A stretch of DNA of 64,000 nucleotides from Phycisphaerales bacterium. Lineage in GTDB: Bacteria; Planctomycetota; Phycisphaerae; Phycisphaerales; SM1A02. The position numbers and the translations under genes were made by a program. The notes below the pieces were generated by a model that saw nothing but the letters and a program-made list of their open reading frames with translations, did no database searches and was not told where the DNA came from. The stretch is taken from assembly GCA_009691725.1 (NCBI GenBank), contig SIAP01000001.1, positions 1 through 64,000 on the forward strand, given 5' to 3'. How positions within the stretch are numbered: position 1 is the stretch's first letter; every line of letters begins with the position of its first letter. Shown here one piece after another: positions 28,976 to 37,572 of this stretch.

Positions 28976-30844
28976 CTACCGAGGTACTGTATCGCGAGTC
29001 GCGCTGTTGGGATCGGTCGTTGGCTTCGGTTGCGCCGAAACTCCAATCTGGGGAGTCAACCCAGGGACCATCGAAGCAGGCAGGGAGGGTTGAGCTTCAG
29101 TTGGAAGCACCTCATCATCGATGAACTCAGGACGATCGCTTCTTTCGGCTTCCGCGCCAGCAGTCGCGATCGCCGCGAGGATTCGATCCTGCTCCATCTT
29201 CAATCCACCGGTCAGCGAACCATTGACATTTAGCGCATGGAGGGCGCTGATGGTCTGACTGAAAGTCATCCCCAACCCAGGAGCGGGATGCGCGGCATCC
29301 GTTTTGTGTCCGAGGAATCGAATGAGCTCTGGAACCCCGACACTGACACTGTCGACGATCGGGGTTGCCCCAAAACTCCGCCTGTAGAACACATCGATCG
29401 AGTCTGCGCCAATCTCGCCCTTGAACAGCAAGTCCCCACCCCATGCGCGCACATGGAGCGGCATCTTGACCTTCAACTCGTCATCGAACACGGTGATCGA
29501 TGGGTCGCCGGTCTGACTGATGTAGATCATCGGGAACGTGCTTGGAACGACGTCGATCCTGAACTTGGATCCGACCATCTGACTATGCACGATGAGGTCA
29601 CCGCGCGCCCTCAAGACCTCATAGGCGGCGAGACGGACATCCACGTCGCTGTCGTTGAGCAACGGTCGCAGCCCAAGGTCGATCGCTGGATTGATGCTCA
29701 TCCGCCGCAGAAGTTTGATGCATGGGACGCGCAGTTCGGTACTTCCCCCGGTTGCCATCGCCAACAAGTGTGGCACGACGAGTGCGTCATCGAGCCTCGC
29801 TCCCGCCTGAAGCGCAGCGAATCGAGGTTGCTCTTCGGGGTAGTCGTAGAGCGAACGAACTGATGCCAGGCTCTTTTTCCCGAGCGCTTGCCAGCGCAGA
29901 CTCGCTGATCTCGCAGCGCCTGGGTTGTTCGTCAGAGCGCTTTTGATAGCAGATGCGGTTGCATCGATCGGACCAACATGCACCGAAGTGTGGCGGAGCA
30001 ACTCGACGAATTCATCTGAGTGATCGCGCCATGAGGGCGGAACGGCCACAGTAATCAACTCGCCAGAGTGACCGATCGCAGTCTCGCCTCGTTGGGTTGG
30101 TTCGCGTGGATAATTTGAATTGATCGCACTGGTGATGAGTCGTGCGCGCGAATGACTTGGAGTTGCCATCACCAACTTGATCGGGAGTTCTCGGATGGAA
30201 TCCCCGCCATTGAGAACGCGTCCGCTCAGCTGATTCACCATCGTCTGGCTCCGATCCGCATCATCCGCAAATGGATTGATGATGATCGGACCTTGCGCCT
30301 CTGCAATCGCTCGGGTTGTTCGACTTCCCACCAGCAGCACTCCCGGTCGCAGATCGGTCACCCACAATGTTCCGCCTTCGAGACTCGTGGTGCTCGTGCC
30401 AGGTGCGGCGTAGACGCGAACGTCAAATCGCGTGTGCTTCGGTGCACCTGCTGGAATCACCGCTTCAACGATGACGATCGCCGCGTCCTCCGATGTGAGC
30501 AACGCCTCTGGTTCGATGGTTGGACCACTTCCAGAATCTTCGCCAATGCCTCGGCGCATCATCTCGCGCAAGATGTACTGCCGAACTTCGGCAGGGGCGG
30601 TTCGACTTCCCGTTCCCTTGAGTCCAGTGACGAATCCATATCCGCGCACGACGACTGGTTGATAGCCCATGACGATGGTCTCGCTCGCCACCGTGCCACG
30701 CATGATCGGATCCACATCGAGCGGTATCGGAGGGCGCTCAACCCTCTTGGTCGCGACGCCGGTGTCGGCCTTCTCGATATTCGTGCACGAACCAAGAGCG
30801 AGGCAGCACAGGGGGATGAGGATGGGGAGACACTTCACACGCAT
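28976..30844 (-). CDS. FlgI-like (flagellar P-ring domain) lipoprotein with HEAT-like segment
   Basis: 622-residue lipoprotein (lipobox LALGSC, Cys20). The N-terminal half resembles FlgI, the P-ring subunit of the flagellar basal body: [60 protein letters not shown] and LWVTDLRP. It then departs from FlgI: a helical, HEAT-like stretch ([39 protein letters not shown]) and a hydrophilic tail. Canonical FlgI is about 360 residues and has a cleaved Sec signal rather than a lipobox. No other flagellar gene is in the window. Possibly an outer-membrane or periplasmic ring component of some other system, or a lineage-specific flagellar part. Its stop is 94 bp upstream of smc. Confidence 0.75.
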
Positions 30845-31012: not shown

Positions 31013-34000
31013 TCACTTCGGTGAGATGAACTCGTCGAGCCAGTTGCGATCTGGCCATGCGTATGGTCGGAACTTTTCCTGCGTGCCCGATTCCTCACTA
31101 TGCAAGAGGGCACGTTGCGGTCCAAGGCGACTTGCGACGGGCGAGTCGATCAGCGTGCTCGAGTCGGATGCGCTGACTTGGAAGAGGAGCCGCCACTCGA
31201 ACTCACGGATGGAATTGCGATCGAAGGTGCGTGCGAGGTTGGTCGATCCGTCGCAGGTCACCATCACATGGATGCCGACCTGAGGTCCCTCGCGCAGAAT
31301 GGTCGCCAACATCCGATCGGCGGTCTGTGGTGTGTCGCCTGACGATCCATATCCAAAGTCATCTTCATTGCGCCGGAGCGAACGAAATCGATGTGTGGCA
31401 TGCACCAAGACCAGATGTGCAGGAGCGAGCGTCGTGTGATCGTTCTGGCGAGTCGCCAATTCTGCGATGACTTCAGCGAGCACAGTTTCGCAATCGCGCA
31501 GACTGCCGCTTGCTCCGGCCAATCCAAGACGCACCTTCAGCGCCGCGAGTTGTCCAAACTCGGCGGCGTCCGGCGGGGTTCCATCGAGGAGATGCACCGC
31601 ACACGCGCCGCTCTGAAACTGCGCCGCCATCGAAACCAGCGCTCCTGCGGACACACCCAGCGCAGCGTCTTCTCGTTGCCCGACGAGCATGATATTCGTG
31701 CCGGTCTGCCGACGAAGCGCAACGGCAGTTGGGTCCTTGATTGAGATTGCATCGCCAAACCACAGCAGCGGCGTCCCCTCGAATGGCCGTTGATCTCGTG
31801 CGCACCGCGCGGCATGCATCAGCGGGTTGCCTGAAAGCAACGCAGCGGCGCTTCCCTCAAAGATGATCATCGGCGGTCGTTTCGATGGGGGCGAAGCCGC
31901 AGCGCGAGTTCGAATCTTCGCGAGCATTCGATCGCGTTCCTCGTCGGAGAGCCACACCACTTGGAATGGGTTGTTCCCCTCGACGAGACCGCCGGCATCG
32001 TTGTAGATCGCCTCGCCCGGACGCGAGAGCAATCGCGCCGCGACATTGTCATCCGAGAGAATCAACTGCGAATCAGCCTCGGTGCACTGCAGCGCAATTC
32101 GCACCGCCATCTGTCCCATGGTGGCGCGAGCGATGGAATACGCACCGCCGAGCGTCTGTGATCCGAGGATCACATGAATGCCGAAGGCGCGCCCTTGGCG
32201 CACGAGGCGGTCGAGCAGCAGTGCCGACTCTTCCGAGACTCGGTCGTCCTCCGTGAAGAGTTCTTGGAACTCGTCGACGATGAGGAGTGTGCGCGGAATG
32301 ATCTCCGACGCTCCGAGCCGCCGATATCCCGCCAGATCTTGCACGGATCGATCGCGAAACAGTTCGCCGCGTCGTCGAAGTTCAACATCCAGTCCGCGCA
32401 GCACCGAAAGACCAAACTCTCGATCGCTCTCGACAGCGACCGCACGCGCATGCGGGAGGCGATTGGTGGCGTAGGTTCTAAACTCAACACCTTTCTTGAA
32501 ATCCACGAGCCAGAGCTCCGCTTCGTCGGGGCTGTATCGAAGCGCAAGGTTTGTAATCAGTGCATGGAACAGCGTGGACTTTCCAGAGCCGGTCTTCCCG
32601 GCGATCAATGCATGCTGGCTGGTCCCGATACCCAGAGTGATCTGCTGCAATCGCATGGCGCCCGCACGACCCAGTGCAACTGTGATGGAATGGGCGGCTG
32701 ATTCCTTCCAGATCCCATCATCTGCAGGGGCGATGGCGCTGAATGGGACCTCCACGCGCATTGCACTCTTGGCAGTTGCACCGATGCGCCGCAGCAGGGC
32801 GATTGTCGATTCACTCTCTGGAACGGACCCTGGAGTGAATGGGAAATCCCCAAATGGTGGCGTGCTCATCACCAGTCGTTCATCGCGCGAATGAATGCAG
32901 AGCGACCGATTGCGGATCTCTGCGATGTCGATCTCTGGTGGCACGGGCTGTCGGGTGTCGCGCAGAATGATCGTGAAGACGCCGCACCGCGCGCCGCTCG
33001 TGACGATGCTCGCAAGTCGACGGGCTGCGATGTCCGACAATCCCGTAGGGAAGTCTGCGAGAACGAGGAAGCGATAGGGCTCGGCGATTTCGCCCGCCTG
33101 CGCGTTGTAGGCATCGATGTCTTCAAACTCATTGCGCAAGAACTTCTGGATCACAGTCTCCATGTGCTCGCACAAGGCGACGAGTCGCTGCTCGATGTGC
33201 CGTGTGTCAGTCCAAATCCGTTCGCCGATGACATGGGGTGCCTCGTCAGTAAGGTGCATGAACGCGGCGAATGGTTCGCCAAGTCCCACGGGATCGATGA
33301 TCGTGAAGCGGGCACGGCCGGGTGGGAGCGAAGTCAGTATTCGAAGAATCGTCTCCTGCAAGAGCGCGATGCCAGCAGCTCGACCAACTTGATCAGTTTC
33401 GACAAGTAGTGAGGCCTGTGCCGGAAATGCGAGCGTTATGGGCAAGTGCAAGACTCGCGGTGAACCCGCTGGCCATGCCAAATCAGGGTCGCTCGGCAGT
33501 GCCCCGGGGATTGCATGCATTGCGACAGCGATCGCACCGATCTTTGCCGCGCCAATGGATTGGGTCTGTCCGCGAAAACGAACCCACATCGGGTCGCTCC
33601 ATGATGGAAAGAGTTGATGATCGCAGTGCATGACCGACTGCGTATCCACACGCATCTGCTCACGCGCTATCTTCCATGCACTCCGCAATGCCTCGTCACG
33701 CGCCGCCTCGACTGCGGCAATCTCGCGCATTCGGCCGGCATGGCGAGTCTGCTGTGACTCGACGGCTCGGTCGTACTGGGCGTGGAGTGCTTCGCACTCT
33801 CGTGTCAATGCAAGACCGATCGCCTCGTCAGCCGACTCTGCCTGTGCGCTCGCGTTGCGCCGATCCCGCTGCGCCGTTGCTCGAATGACTTGCGCGCGCG
33901 CGCGCGCTGATTCGCGGACCTCATTGCGCTTTGGCGCAGCTGCGCCATCGAGCGCTGCACGTTCTGAAAGATGTCCAGAGCGAAATCCCGCTTCTTGCTG

Positions 34001-34939
34001 CTGGCGAATTGCTCGAGCAGCCTCCAACCCGCCCGTCGCTGCGGTGCGAACCGACGCCTGAATCTGCGCTGTGGTGGTTGCGAAACGGATCAGTCGTCGT
34101 CCAGCTGCGGTCCAGATGGCAGCCTGCAGGAGCAGGATCGGAACGACCGCAACGGCGAGGGTGCTCAATGCCGTCGCGTGACTCCATCCAAAGGCGACTC
34201 CGATGAGCAGGGCGGTCGCAGAGAGCAGCAACAGCGTTGAGCCAAGATGGGCCAACCAATTCCGCATGATCAGCGCCATCGACTCCTTGCGCAGCCGCTC
34301 GAGCGTGGTTCGTGCCAGAGTGCCTTGGTTCTCGAGGATGGCGCGATGATCATCGAGCGTGCGACTCTCACTCGCCAGCACGTCGAGAGACTCGCCGCGA
34401 TGCGTCATGCTCGCCCGTCGGAGCAGCCGATCGAGTTGCTCGACAATCTGGTCAACGTCTTGCACGCATCGCTCGATCGCAGCGCGCGTGACTTCGAAGT
34501 CGGCGCGGGGACGCGGCGCGAGGTTTTCGTAGATCGCGTCGGCAGTCCATGATGTGTCCTCATGAACGCGGTCAATCTCGCCGAGTTGCTCTTCAAATTT
34601 CTGAGTGAGTTCTTCCACCGCCGCACGCTCGTGATTATCAATCTTGGTGAGGTGTCGCTTGGATCTCGCCTTCGCGCTCTCCCTACCGGTGGATTGTTTC
34701 GCGGTGAGCGCTTCGAGCGCAGCATCTCGTTCGACCCTCAACTGCTCGAGATGAGCGAGATGATCGCGATCTTCGGGCGCTTTCGCGCGCGAGGAGAATT
34801 CTGCCAAAGAGTGCTCGGCTGCGATCCGCTGCGCAGTGGCTTCGAGCAGCGTCACCAATATTCGTCGCCCCACTGGAACGAGGTCTTGTCCACGAATCGT
34901 CGTCGGATCAGTGATTGACGATTCCATGTTCGGAATCAT
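31013..34939 (-). CDS. FtsK/SpoIIIE (EccC/EssC-like) ATPase of a type VII-like secretion cluster
   Basis: 1308-residue membrane ATPase. Residues 1-225 are charged and coiled-coil; two membrane helices lie near 230-250 and 255-278; a second coiled-coil spans about 285-440. Three FtsK-like modules follow. The first (about 470-730) lacks a Walker A (LLVETDQVGRAAG) and its Walker B is degenerate. The second (about 740-1000) is intact: IAGKTGSGKSTLFHALI (Walker A near residue 779), LVDFKKGVEF, and TLLIVDEFQELF (Walker B near 885). The third (about 1040-1308) is degenerate (NIMLVGQREDAALG). Multiple FtsK modules on one membrane chain are the hallmark of type VII secretion ATPases (EccC/EssC), not of DNA translocase FtsK, which has one module and a gamma domain. 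Last gene of a four-gene unit headed by a WXG100-like protein. Confidence 0.88.
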   Translation of the reverse strand: MIPNMESSITDPTTIRGQDLVPVGRRILVTLLEATAQRIAAEHSLAEFSSRAKAPEDRDHLAHLEQLRVERDAALEALTAKQSTGRESAKARSKRHLTKIDNHERAAVEELTQKFEEQLGEIDRVHEDTSWTADAIYENLAPRPRADFEVTRAAIERCVQDVDQIVEQLDRLLRRASMTHRGESLDVLASESRTLDDHRAILENQGTLARTTLERLRKESMALIMRNWLAHLGSTLLLLSATALLIGVAFGWSHATALSTLAVAVVPILLLQAAIWTAAGRRLIRFATTTAQIQASVRTAATGGLEAARAIRQQQEAGFRSGHLSERAALDGAAAPKRNEVRESARARAQVIRATAQRDRRNASAQAESADEAIGLALTRECEALHAQYDRAVESQQTRHAGRMREIAAVEAARDEALRSAWKIAREQMRVDTQSVMHCDHQLFPSWSDPMWVRFRGQTQSIGAAKIGAIAVAMHAIPGALPSDPDLAWPAGSPRVLHLPITLAFPAQASLLVETDQVGRAAGIALLQETILRILTSLPPGRARFTIIDPVGLGEPFAAFMHLTDEAPHVIGERIWTDTRHIEQRLVALCEHMETVIQKFLRNEFEDIDAYNAQAGEIAEPYRFLVLADFPTGLSDIAARRLASIVTSGARCGVFTIILRDTRQPVPPEIDIAEIRNRSLCIHSRDERLVMSTPPFGDFPFTPGSVPESESTIALLRRIGATAKSAMRVEVPFSAIAPADDGIWKESAAHSITVALGRAGAMRLQQITLGIGTSQHALIAGKTGSGKSTLFHALITNLALRYSPDEAELWLVDFKKGVEFRTYATNRLPHARAVAVESDREFGLSVLRGLDVELRRRGELFRDRSVQDLAGYRRLGASEIIPRTLLIVDEFQELFTEDDRVSEESALLLDRLVRQGRAFGIHVILGSQTLGGAYSIARATMGQMAVRIALQCTEADSQLILSDDNVAARLLSRPGEAIYNDAGGLVEGNNPFQVVWLSDEERDRMLAKIRTRAAASPPSKRPPMIIFEGSAAALLSGNPLMHAARCARDQRPFEGTPLLWFGDAISIKDPTAVALRRQTGTNIMLVGQREDAALGVSAGALVSMAAQFQSGACAVHLLDGTPPDAAEFGQLAALKVRLGLAGASGSLRDCETVLAEVIAELATRQNDHTTLAPAHLVLVHATHRFRSLRRNEDDFGYGSSGDTPQTADRMLATILREGPQVGIHVMVTCDGSTNLARTFDRNSIREFEWRLLFQVSASDSSTLIDSPVASRLGPQRALLHSEESGTQEKFRPYAWPDRNWLDEFISPK

Positions 34940-34979
34940 AAGTCAAACGCCAAAGCGAGACAGCGCGTCCAGTTGCCAA

Positions 34980-35198
34980 CTAGCGAGCGTCACAGTCACG
35001 TCGCGCCCGCTCCATTGCGTCGGAGAGTTGGTCGAGTGCGAGGGTCGCAATCCGAACAGCGTCCTCGGAGGGTTGGATCGCTTCCCGCTCGATGGATGCG
35101 CTTGCTGCATCCCTCCACTCTGCCCGGAGTGCAAGCCACTGCTCACGAAGGACTCGAATCGTGTCCTTGAGTTTGGCCTTGTGTGTCGCGTTACTCAT
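34980..35198 (-). CDS. Small helical protein of the WXG100/FtsK cluster
   Basis: 72-residue, highly charged, all-helical protein (LKDTIRVLREQWLALRAEWR; then a second helix with ALDQLSDAMERARRD). The start at 35198 overlaps the stop of the upstream 208-residue gene by 8 bp, indicating translational coupling; the FtsK-like gene follows after 40 bp. I do not recognise the family. Size, helicity and position would suit a second small export substrate, a chaperone or an adaptor, but no WXG motif is present (a central LRAEWRD has W but no following Gly). Confidence 0.6.
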   Translation of the reverse strand: MSNATHKAKLKDTIRVLREQWLALRAEWRDAASASIEREAIQPSEDAVRIATLALDQLSDAMERARRDCDAR

Positions 35199-35817
35199 CG
35201 CGGTGACCCTCCGTGGAGTCTTTCGATCCCCCTCGGCGCATGGAGGACTCGGCATCGGTGCGCAGGTCTGGAAGTTGGAGGCTTTCGGGCGCAGCGTTTG
35301 CGATTGCATCGAGCTCCGGCTCCAACCCCTTTGGACCGGTCGAGAGGTACGAATCGATCGCCTCTCCCATTCGGTTGAGCGAGGCGACGGATGCGGGGAT
35401 CACCTGATCCACATAAGTCGAAAGGGGCCCCATCCCTGCACGAAAGAGCGCCAAGACACGCTGGTACTCGATCGCCCACCGCCGCAACTCGCGAAGGCAA
35501 TGTTCGGCGTGGCGGACCGCCTGTTCAGTTCGCGCAACGGTGCGCCGCTCGTCGACGGTCGAAGGTGGTCGACCATCCGCGGTCATCTGGATCTCCTTGC
35601 GAAAGAGCGCCGCACGATCGCCATTGAGTTTCTCGGTCAACTGTCGCCGCTGCCGTTCCCAGTAGGTAGGGCCCTCGCTCGAAAGCCACATTCCAAAGCG
35701 TTCTGCATCGGATCGGGACTCCTCAATGGCCGTCGCAAAGCCGCGCGCAGCCTTGGTCAGGATTGCCTTTGCCGCCATGATCGTTCGAGTGTCGCGAAGG
35801 TGTGCGCCTTGGTCCAT
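35191..35817 (-). CDS. Uncharacterised helical protein of the WXG100/FtsK cluster
   Basis: 208-residue soluble protein, predicted mostly helical: AAKAILTKAARGFATAIEES, a Trp/Tyr-containing helix YWERQRRQLTEKLNGDRAAL, a long helix TEQAVRHAEHCLRELRRWAI, and an acidic, Ser/Gly-rich, poorly structured C-terminus from about residue 165. No signal peptide or membrane segment. ATG at 35817 follows the WXG100-like stop by 11 bp with a GGTGA before it; an internal ATG at 35778 is possible. I do not recognise the family. Its fixed place between the WXG100-like gene and the ATPase suggests a component or substrate of the same system. Confidence 0.65.
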   Translation of the reverse strand: MDQGAHLRDTRTIMAAKAILTKAARGFATAIEESRSDAERFGMWLSSEGPTYWERQRRQLTEKLNGDRAALFRKEIQMTADGRPPSTVDERRTVARTEQAVRHAEHCLRELRRWAIEYQRVLALFRAGMGPLSTYVDQVIPASVASLNRMGEAIDSYLSTGPKGLEPELDAIANAAPESLQLPDLRTDAESSMRRGGSKDSTEGHRDE

Positions 35818-35828
35818 CGAGAGATCAC

Positions 35829-36101
35829 CTAGCGCTGTTGGAGGTACTCATCGATCCGGTCTGCCTTGCGCAACAAGAATGGGATGTGTTCTTCGCTCAC
35901 TTTCATGAGTCGTTGAAGCACCTTCAGTGTCTGATCGAACTCCTCCGCAAACTTCTGCTGTTCTTGGTCTCTCCATGTCTGAGCCAATGTGTTCATGCGC
36001 CCGCCGATCGTGGAGATGCCGGACTGCAAGTCTTGGTTGAACTTGCGCAAATCAGCAGCAAACCGCCTCAATTCATTGGGATCGACAACAGCCTTTGCCA
36101 T
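35829..36101 (-). CDS. WXG100-like small helical protein (candidate type VII substrate)
   Basis: 90-residue protein built as a helical hairpin: helix one DPNELRRFAADLRKFNQDLQ, a turn around residues 38-46 with Trp43 (QTWRDQEQQKF), helix two FAEEFDQTLKVLQRLMKVSE. This matches the WXG100/ESAT-6 pattern in length, in the central Trp, and in the following Phe, but the usual Gly two residues after Trp is Asp (W-R-D). ATG at 36101 is used; a TTG two codons earlier is less likely. First gene of the unit that leads to the EccC-like ATPase. No signal peptide, as expected of type VII substrates. Divergent from the aldehyde dehydrogenase gene, 31 bp away. Confidence 0.78.
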   Translation of the reverse strand: MAKAVVDPNELRRFAADLRKFNQDLQSGISTIGGRMNTLAQTWRDQEQQKFAEEFDQTLKVLQRLMKVSEEHIPFLLRKADRIDEYLQQR

Positions 36102-36132
36102 GGACAAAGTGTAGCGGTGCTAGCCTCAATCG

Positions 36133-37572
36133 ATGGAGAATAGAAATCTGATCTCTGGTGAGTGGAGGGGTGCGCTCGATGGATCCACCTTCGGAGTATG
36201 CGATGCGGCAACAGGCAGGGAGATCGCACGCGTGCCACACTGCCATGAGATGGAAGCGCTCGAGGCGGTGGAGGGTGCGGCGAATGCACTTGGAGCGTGG
36301 CGCAGTCGATCGCTTGAGGAGCGCGCGCAGTTCTTGCGCGCAATTGCTGCTGCGTTGCGGTCGCATGAGGATCAATTCGCACACGTCATCACGGCCGAAA
36401 ACGGAAAACCGTTGAGCGAGGGAAGGGGCGAGGTCGCGTACAGCGCAGACTATTTTTCATCTGCTGCCGACGAGGCACTTCAGCTGCATGCGATCAACAT
36501 TCGATCGCGAAGTGAATTGCGTGTGCTTCGCGCCCATCCCGAACCGATTGGAGTCGTGGCAGCGATCACGCCGTGGAATTTCCCACTCGCGATGATGGCG
36601 CGGAAGACCGCTCCTGCATTGGCTGCAGGATGCACGCAGGTGATCAAGCCAGCTGAACTCACTCCACTTACCGCGCTCCTCTTTGCTCGGGTCCTCGCGG
36701 ATCTTGGACTTCCACCGGGGGTGGTCAATGTTGTGACTGGTGATCCCGCAGCCATTGGTCAAGCATGGCTCGATGATGGCCGAGTGCGCAAACTCTCCTT
36801 CACGGGCTCGACTCGGGTCGGGCGATTGCTCATGCGAGGCGCGGCAGAACAGGTGGTTCGCCTCTCACTCGAACTGGGAGGTCACGCTCCATTCATCGTC
36901 TTGCGGGATGCCAATGTCGCTGCTGCGGTTGATGCAGCGGTGGCGGGGAAGTTCCGTGCGGCTGGGCAAACATGTGTCTGTCCAAATCGATTCCTGATCG
37001 CCGATGAGATTCACGACGAATTCGTCGAGCGGTTCGTGACCGCCGCGCGACTCCTTCCCGTGGGGCGAGGCTTGGATCTGGCGACGCGCGTGGGACCGCT
37101 CATCAGTGATGAGGCTGTCGCGCGTATGCGCCGACACATTGACGATGCACTCGCCAAGGGTGCGACGCTCAGAACGGGCGGTTCCACGATTGCGGTGGAA
37201 GGGTGCGTCGATCGATTCTTCGCCCCGACGGTCGTGACTGAAGCGTCATCGAGAATGGTGTGCTTTCAGGAAGAGACATTCGGACCGCTCGCACCGATCG
37301 CCCGCTTCCACGACGAATCGCATGCGATTCAGATTGCCAACGAAACACCCTTTGGGCTTGCGGCGTATGTCTTCAGCGAGGATTCCACTCGACTCGCCGC
37401 GGTGAGCGAGGCAGTGAACTGCGGAATCGTCGGCGCAAACACCGGAATCATCAGCGATGCCTACGCTCCGTTTGGTGGGCGTGGATGGTCTGGCTTCGGC
37501 AGAGAAGGGGGTCGATGGGGGATCGAGGAGTACCTCTCGTGGAAATATGTATGCACTGGCGTGCATGGGTGA
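36133..37572 (+). CDS. gabD: NAD(P)-dependent aldehyde dehydrogenase, succinate-semialdehyde type
   Basis: 479-residue aldehyde dehydrogenase closest in pattern to succinate-semialdehyde dehydrogenases. Motifs: ITPWNFPLAMMARKTAPALA (cofactor/active-site Asn), KPAELTPLTA, SFTGSTRVGRLLM, LELGGHAPF with catalytic Glu247, GQTCVCPNRF with catalytic Cys281, and EETFGPLAPI. All catalytic residues are present. Start ATG at 36133 gives ENRNLISGEWRGA, the usual N-terminus. The preceding intergenic gap to the divergent WXG100-like gene is only 31 bp, so the promoters must overlap. The substrate is inferred from family resemblance, so the symbol is tentative. Confidence 0.88.
   Translation: MENRNLISGEWRGALDGSTFGVCDAATGREIARVPHCHEMEALEAVEGAANALGAWRSRSLEERAQFLRAIAAALRSHEDQFAHVITAENGKPLSEGRGEVAYSADYFSSAADEALQLHAINIRSRSELRVLRAHPEPIGVVAAITPWNFPLAMMARKTAPALAAGCTQVIKPAELTPLTALLFARVLADLGLPPGVVNVVTGDPAAIGQAWLDDGRVRKLSFTGSTRVGRLLMRGAAEQVVRLSLELGGHAPFIVLRDANVAAAVDAAVAGKFRAAGQTCVCPNRFLIADEIHDEFVERFVTAARLLPVGRGLDLATRVGPLISDEAVARMRRHIDDALAKGATLRTGGSTIAVEGCVDRFFAPTVVTEASSRMVCFQEETFGPLAPIARFHDESHAIQIANETPFGLAAYVFSEDSTRLAAVSEAVNCGIVGANTGIISDAYAPFGGRGWSGFGREGGRWGIEEYLSWKYVCTGVHG

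Follow-up and report, generated by a model that had tools for sequence, protein, structure and literature searches.

The four-gene operon at positions 36101-31013 (minus strand) of a 64,000-nucleotide stretch from a Phycisphaerales bacterium (GCA_009691725.1, contig SIAP01000001.1, positions 1 to 64,000; hereafter the window) most likely encodes a minimal, membrane-anchored type VII-like exporter, a reading to which we assign a probability of roughly 0.6 and in which two of the gene products, P0002 and P0003, would form the cargo. In operon order (slots 1 to 4), the co-directed genes code for a small WXG100-type protein (WXG90), P0002, P0003 and an FtsK-family ATPase (P0004), with intergenic spacings of +11, -8 and +40 bp. 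All open reading frames are found where a preliminary description, made from the sequence alone, had placed four co-directed genes spaced by -8 to 40 bp. Their kinship with type VII systems is well supported, and the proposed mechanism is partly supported. Since relatives inherit all four genes together, the set probably constitutes a real minimal machine.

Co-inheritance of the four genes

In a survey of 201 genomes at the order level, the full-length ATPase was detected in 101 genomes, WXG90 in 101, P0002 in 99 and P0003 in 98. All four families were present, nearly always in single copy, in 97 of the 104 genomes that contain any of them; in several of the seven incomplete genomes, a contig end truncates the gene. 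WXG90 and the ATPase co-occur (98 genomes with both, 3 and 3 with only one, 97 with neither; Fisher p 1.5e-49, a value that overstates independence because the genomes are akin), and the window's own family contains the full-length ATPase in 66 of 67 genomes. The joint presence of P0002 and P0003 with WXG90 and the ATPase in the same genomes bears out the suggestion that these two proteins are components of the system.

The same gene order recurs in 35 of the 41 sampled order-level loci. It is also seen in 44 named loci, which derive from Planctomycetota, Verrucomicrobiota, a single Desulfobulbaceae cable bacterium and a single Bacteroidetes-labelled contig, so that the arrangement is not a chance one. 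The expected conservation across Planctomycetota was thus recovered, but the arrangement is not specific to this phylum, as it is found in Verrucomicrobiota as well. When conserved neighbors were searched for (antisense frames over the four genes being ignored), only the four genes themselves were kept across phyla. Other common neighbors, including a sigma factor, a primase, SMC and a FlgI-domain gene, occur at about 20 loci or fewer and are shared because of the close kinship of these loci. The ATPase tree, built by a fast method and containing several long branches, clusters by phylum. At the phylum level, the distribution is patchy, with the ATPase present in 39 of 294 Planctomycetota and WXG90 in 16 of 289 genomes from the phylum of a Verrucomicrobiota carrier. 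Given the clustering by phylum and the nearly invariable single copy, we disfavor the notion that the operon of the Planctomycetes-Verrucomicrobia-Chlamydiae (PVC) group is a mobile element.

Co-retention extends to genomes in which the genes are no longer linked. Relocated ATPase genes often lie behind miaA- and topA-like genes, an arrangement seen in several genera (as read from the sequence of loci L065, L067, L070 and L073). Of six sampled genomes with a relocated ATPase, five have kept the three small genes as a group. In the near-complete, two-contig genome G035, WXG90, the P0002/P0003 pair and the ATPase occupy three separate sites. Similarly, 11 of the 12 named genomes whose ATPase has no adjacent WXG90 match contain WXG90 elsewhere, in eight cases beside P0002. 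One genome (G060) has the three small genes together, with no full-length ATPase found. Because the genes are retained together even when unlinked, their products are expected to act together, whatever their function. The reading frames of P0002 and P0003 overlap in 29 of 35 loci, consistent with these proteins being equimolar partners.

Relationship of the four proteins to type VII components

The ATPase (1308 aa; 31013..34939, minus strand, as for all features below) is closer to EccC/EssC than to FtsK, both by sequence and by its structural model. In sequence searches against the PDB, EccC (4nh0) was matched with an E-value of 8.7e-34, compared to 2.1e-13 for FtsK, and the model of residues 226-1308 gave EccC/EssC as the best Foldseek matches (4nh0, E 4.8e-30; FtsK, 1.9e-12). 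TIGR03924 and TIGR03925 match the protein at an E-value of about 1e-29 and score alike. Its scores stay below the equivalog cut-offs of NCBIfam (about 104 bits against 509 for TIGR03924, about 104 against 347 for TIGR03925 and about 89 against 778 for TIGR03928), and it is therefore to be seen as a relative rather than an orthologue of EccC or EssC. Matches of the ATPase profile to apolipoprotein A-I were set aside, as they fall on a helical coiled-coil stretch.

The proposed layout of this protein as a two-helix membrane ATPase with three FtsK-like modules was confirmed. Two adjacent transmembrane segments, predicted from hydropathy peaks of 2.09 and 2.26, precede the modules (residues ~228-282; 34094..34258), and at least two such peaks are present in 85 of 96 full-length homologues. 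Module 1 (residues ~464-740; 32720..33550), recognized from the model and a partial PF01580 match of 24.2 bits, and module 3 (residues ~1020-1305; 31025..31882), recognized from the model, are degenerate and lack a Walker A motif. Module 2 (residues ~749-995; 31955..32695; PF01580 match over 749-929) appears to be the active one. It carries the sole Walker A motif of the protein, G-K-T-G-S-G-K-S (32576..32599; G781 and T783-S788 invariant), and the Walker B acidic pair D889-E890 (32270..32275), likewise in invariant columns. A single Walker A motif is found in 94 of 96 ATPase homologues. The source assembly (2.07 Mb, 51 contigs, 92.6% complete) contains only one other strong FtsK-type gene, which codes for an ordinary FtsK of 889 aa.

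WXG90 (90 aa; 35829..36101) matches the WXG100 family PF06013 with 35.8 bits, above the curated cut-off of 27.3, in agreement with its initial description as a WXG100-like protein with W-R-D in place of W-x-G. All 27 aligned members of its family match PF06013 at E <= 0.01, and all 35 homologues aligned first are exactly 90 aa long. The turn motif W43-R44-D45 (35967..35975) departs from W-x-G; in the wider set, W-x-D is found in 80 of 80 homologues, W and D being invariant. Searched against the PDB, the WXG90 profile has HP0062 (3fx7, E 1.8e-11) as its top match and also finds EsxB, and the solved hairpins 3fx7, 4j42 and 2vs0 are covered over near full length. The protein is placed in the WXG100 superfamily because of its profile match, and its sequence marks it as a W-x-D offshoot rather than a canonical W-x-G protein, with a helical hairpin fold predicted by homology to these structures. 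Together with the EccC/EssC homology of the ATPase in sequence and fold, this WXG100-family partner upholds the proposal of a type VII-like core. Neither of the two outcomes named beforehand as contradicting this proposal, a WXG90 that does not form a helical hairpin or a gene order not conserved in relatives, was observed, the hairpin being judged by homology.

P0003 (72 aa; 34980..35198) and P0002 (208 aa; 35191..35817) had both been described as lacking a recognized family, which holds for P0002 but not for P0003. Although the window P0003 itself has no Pfam match and stays below the cut-off of TIGR03930 (18.4 bits, E 0.0019), 10 of 32 members of its family match PF06013 at E <= 1, the best at 1.5e-6. 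A profile comparison of the slot 1 and slot 3 families returned a probability of 43% (E 2.5e-4). Within the W28-R29-D30 motif (35109..35117), W and D are conserved in all 84 homologues, 78 of which also have a C-terminal cysteine (C69). P0003 is thus probably a second WXG100-like hairpin of the W-x-D type rather than an orphan, as judged from its relatives.

P0002 is modeled as a two-helix rod, with long helices at residues 10-76 and 88-160 (AlphaFold2, mean predicted local distance difference test score 85.9), followed by a disordered tail that bears the motif SMRRGG; homologues often carry a similar, loosely defined S-M-R-R-like motif there. Searches of Pfam, NCBIfam and the PDB yielded no credible family or match, and Foldseek returned generic coiled coils with no specific structural match (best E 0.095). 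Matches to major histocompatibility complex proteins were discarded as short and weak. A relationship to WXG90 or P0003 was not detectable by profile, and Pfam searches of 35 P0002 members found no toxin domain. Seven of these 35, among those with a longer C-terminus, match the Imm33-like domain PF24719. An extra C-terminal region is seen in the P0002 homologues of part of the order (L056, L057, L059, L060, L062 and L075-L077).

Comparison with known systems and candidate functions

Type VII secretion has mostly been described in Gram-positive phyla and mycobacteria and involves many membrane parts. The T7SSa (ESX) and T7SSb (Ess/Yuk) systems likewise combine an FtsK-type membrane ATPase with a WXG100 protein. 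They differ from the window system, whose ATPase has three modules with Walker motifs in the middle one only and no FHA domain detectable by Pfam search. Moreover, in the 12 carriers searched genome-wide for three accessory components, none reached the cut-off for YukD/EsaB or YukC/EssB, each of which was exceeded in one control genome, or for EccB, which no control genome exceeded either. These searches, in which EccD, EccE, EsaA and EssA were not included, are in line with the earlier remark that no gene for the usual accessory components lies nearby. Altered gene sets built on an ATPase and WXG100 proteins are also known as T7SSc-T7SSj, which have been described only in Bacillota and Actinomycetota and feature an (almost) universal YukD/EsaB-like protein, other membrane parts and an ATPase predicted to have four NTPase domains (Garrett et al., 2024; PMC11217815). 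At the level of the single protein, the closest parallel to WXG90 is HP0062 of H. pylori, a W-R-D hairpin solved as a helical-hairpin dimer, whose gene lies near that of the FtsK/SpoIIIE-domain protein HP0066 (PMC3397514; PMC4978471); this comparison covers the HP0062 protein itself.

The kind of system is not new. A footnote (Table 1, footnote 6) mentions a solo WXG protein with a YueA-like ATPase of three modules, the middle one active, in planctomycetes, verrucomicrobia and some proteobacteria (Zhang et al., 2012; PMC3482391). The window operon belongs to this group by its three FtsK/HerA modules, its Walker motifs in the middle module only and its adjoining WXG gene, and it shares the same phyla. 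Whereas the footnote speaks of a solo WXG protein and of mobility, the operon includes two further co-inherited genes, for the rod and for another WXG-like protein, and the PVC members of the family group by phylum and almost always occur as one copy per genome. A second forerunner is the CoCoNuT/TerY-P operon, which encodes an EssC-like ATPase with the middle module alone active and an N-terminal coiled coil, two WXG100-type proteins and one coiled-coil protein (PMC11090510; 2024). It differs in that the coiled-coil protein carries a nuclease and the ATPase lacks transmembrane helices, and its flanking VWA, kinase, phosphatase and restriction genes are unlike the surroundings of the PVC operon. 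We found no detailed description of the PVC operon in the openly accessible literature, and the main text of essential-gene papers for two PVC species does not mention these genes. What is new is that all four parts are obligate, that the system has a membrane hairpin and that this form is inherited vertically and lacks a toxin; relative to Zhang et al., our analysis adds two co-inherited genes, transmembrane segments in most homologues and a PVC tree that does not look mobile.

Distant ATPase relatives are located on six plasmids. On a Helicobacter sp. plasmid (L184:4728-9130), a WXG-like gene of 89 aa is followed by genes for a nuclease protein with a helical N-terminus and a WHH/colicin-DNase nuclease end, a SUKH immunity protein, a 77-aa protein and the ATPase. 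The Caballeronia plasmid NZ_CP049321 has an operon similar to that of CoCoNuT/TerY-P, encoding the ATPase, a WXG protein, a 436-aa coiled-coil protein and proteins of 113 and 76 aa; VWA, PP2C, kinase and CARF genes adjoin it. Comparable sets, differently ordered, are found on Rhodococcus and Deinococcus plasmids. The WXG90 profile matches a small protein on all four of these plasmids. P0002 corresponds to the plasmid slot-2 proteins more by position and helical character than by sequence. Because the plasmid toxin/immunity slot agrees with the operon of PMC11090510, slot 2 is plausibly a cargo slot, the PVC form of which would be devoid of a toxin.

On the preferred reading, P0004 would anchor in the inner membrane via its two transmembrane segments and act as the motor, with ATP hydrolysis confined to the middle module. 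WXG90 would be an obligate small hairpin in the role of EsxA, needed by the motor or co-exported, while the P0002 rod and the P0003 W-x-D hairpin, whose genes would be translationally coupled, may form the cargo or a pre-export complex, comparable to the pairs of LXG toxins with Lap proteins or of PPE with PE proteins. Such pairs (LXG with Lap1/Lap2, PPE/PE) serve as mechanistic analogues, as the LXG toxins of T7SSb work with small partners (PMC9600955). The cargo slot that holds a nuclease toxin and immunity gene in a distant plasmid relative would have lost its toxin domain in the PVC group and, because this domain is missing here, the rod itself or its tail domain may be delivered to the periplasm or the cell surface. 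A more specific version is tentative and, in our estimate, somewhat doubtful: a domesticated, toxin-less four-protein exporter, vertically inherited and nearly fixed in some diderm PVC lineages, that carries the rod together with its W-x-D partner through the inner membrane, possibly as far as the surface, and has no equivalent of EccB/D/E or EsaA/EssA/EssB/YukD.

Several points weigh against the preferred reading. The end of WXG90 has YLxQR and lacks the YxxxD/E export motif; none of 35 P0002 members has an LXG or PPE match in Pfam; P0002 shows weak sequence similarity to the plasmid slot-2 proteins (best 24.4 bits in a search of 26 proteins, on a coiled coil); no outer-membrane or periplasmic partner was found; and export as such we infer from the genes. 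The missing outer-membrane partner would suit an intracellular machine built from type VII parts, which would act on DNA, the envelope or the division apparatus at the inner membrane, with the WXG proteins as adaptors and nothing exported. FtsK motor domains are indeed the next structural matches after EccC/EssC, the near-universal single-copy inheritance within the family resembles that of housekeeping genes, and kindred operons whose ATPases lack transmembrane helices reside in TerY-P/CoCoNuT stress and defense islands (PMC11090510). However, EccC/EssC outscore FtsK by sequence and fold, the genome has a separate full FtsK, the motor is accompanied by a clear WXG100-family partner and a probable second one, and most homologues have transmembrane segments, so that we regard this alternative as rather unlikely.

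Still less probable is a role in interbacterial toxin delivery, in which toxins encoded elsewhere in the genome would be targeted by WXG90 and P0003. The small partners of T7SSb LXG toxins (PMC9600955), the toxin and immunity genes on a plasmid relative and the Imm33-like tails of some P0002 proteins would fit such a role, but no toxin domain was found among the P0002 members, and in nearly all carriers WXG90, P0002 and P0003 have no paralogues and therefore no toxin family sharing a targeting domain. That the operon is a selfish remnant, decaying or mobile, with no fixed function, as the mobility ascribed to the family by Zhang et al. (PMC3482391) and its patchiness at the phylum level might suggest, is very improbable in view of its intact frames, the invariant length of WXG90 in the 35 homologues aligned, the clustering of the tree by phylum and the retention of the scattered genes in G035. 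If the four-protein set is retained as a unit in diderms, it would help to define the irreducible core of type VII systems, suggest that a substrate slot can persist after toxin loss and offer a simple, non-pathogenic system for testing motor, adaptor and cargo, with a component list that co-retention after gene scattering makes directly testable.

Surroundings and variant loci

In the window, a divergent aldehyde dehydrogenase frame (36133-37572) begins about 31 bp from the start of WXG90 (36101-36133), and any promoters in this gap must therefore overlap. Directly downstream of the ATPase lies the gene of a 622-aa FlgI-domain protein (28976-30844, minus strand; PF02119, 74.7 bits) with a lipoprotein-like start, followed by an SMC gene; similar neighbors recur in close relatives only.

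Among the variant loci, the ATPase of the Bacteroidetes-labelled contig (L127) nests inside Verrucomicrobiota, and the contig may stem from a mislabelled bin. In a verrucomicrobial locus (L118:3199-3800), a RelE/HigB-like gene and a helix-turn-helix gene, apparently a toxin-antitoxin pair as judged by eye, are inserted between P0002 and P0003. Rhodopirellula-type genomes (L165, L161 and L154) have differing genes of 400-515 aa upstream of the ATPase, the one in L165 resembling TelA by eye, and in L165 and L154 an 86-87 aa hairpin-like gene lies between this gene and the ATPase.

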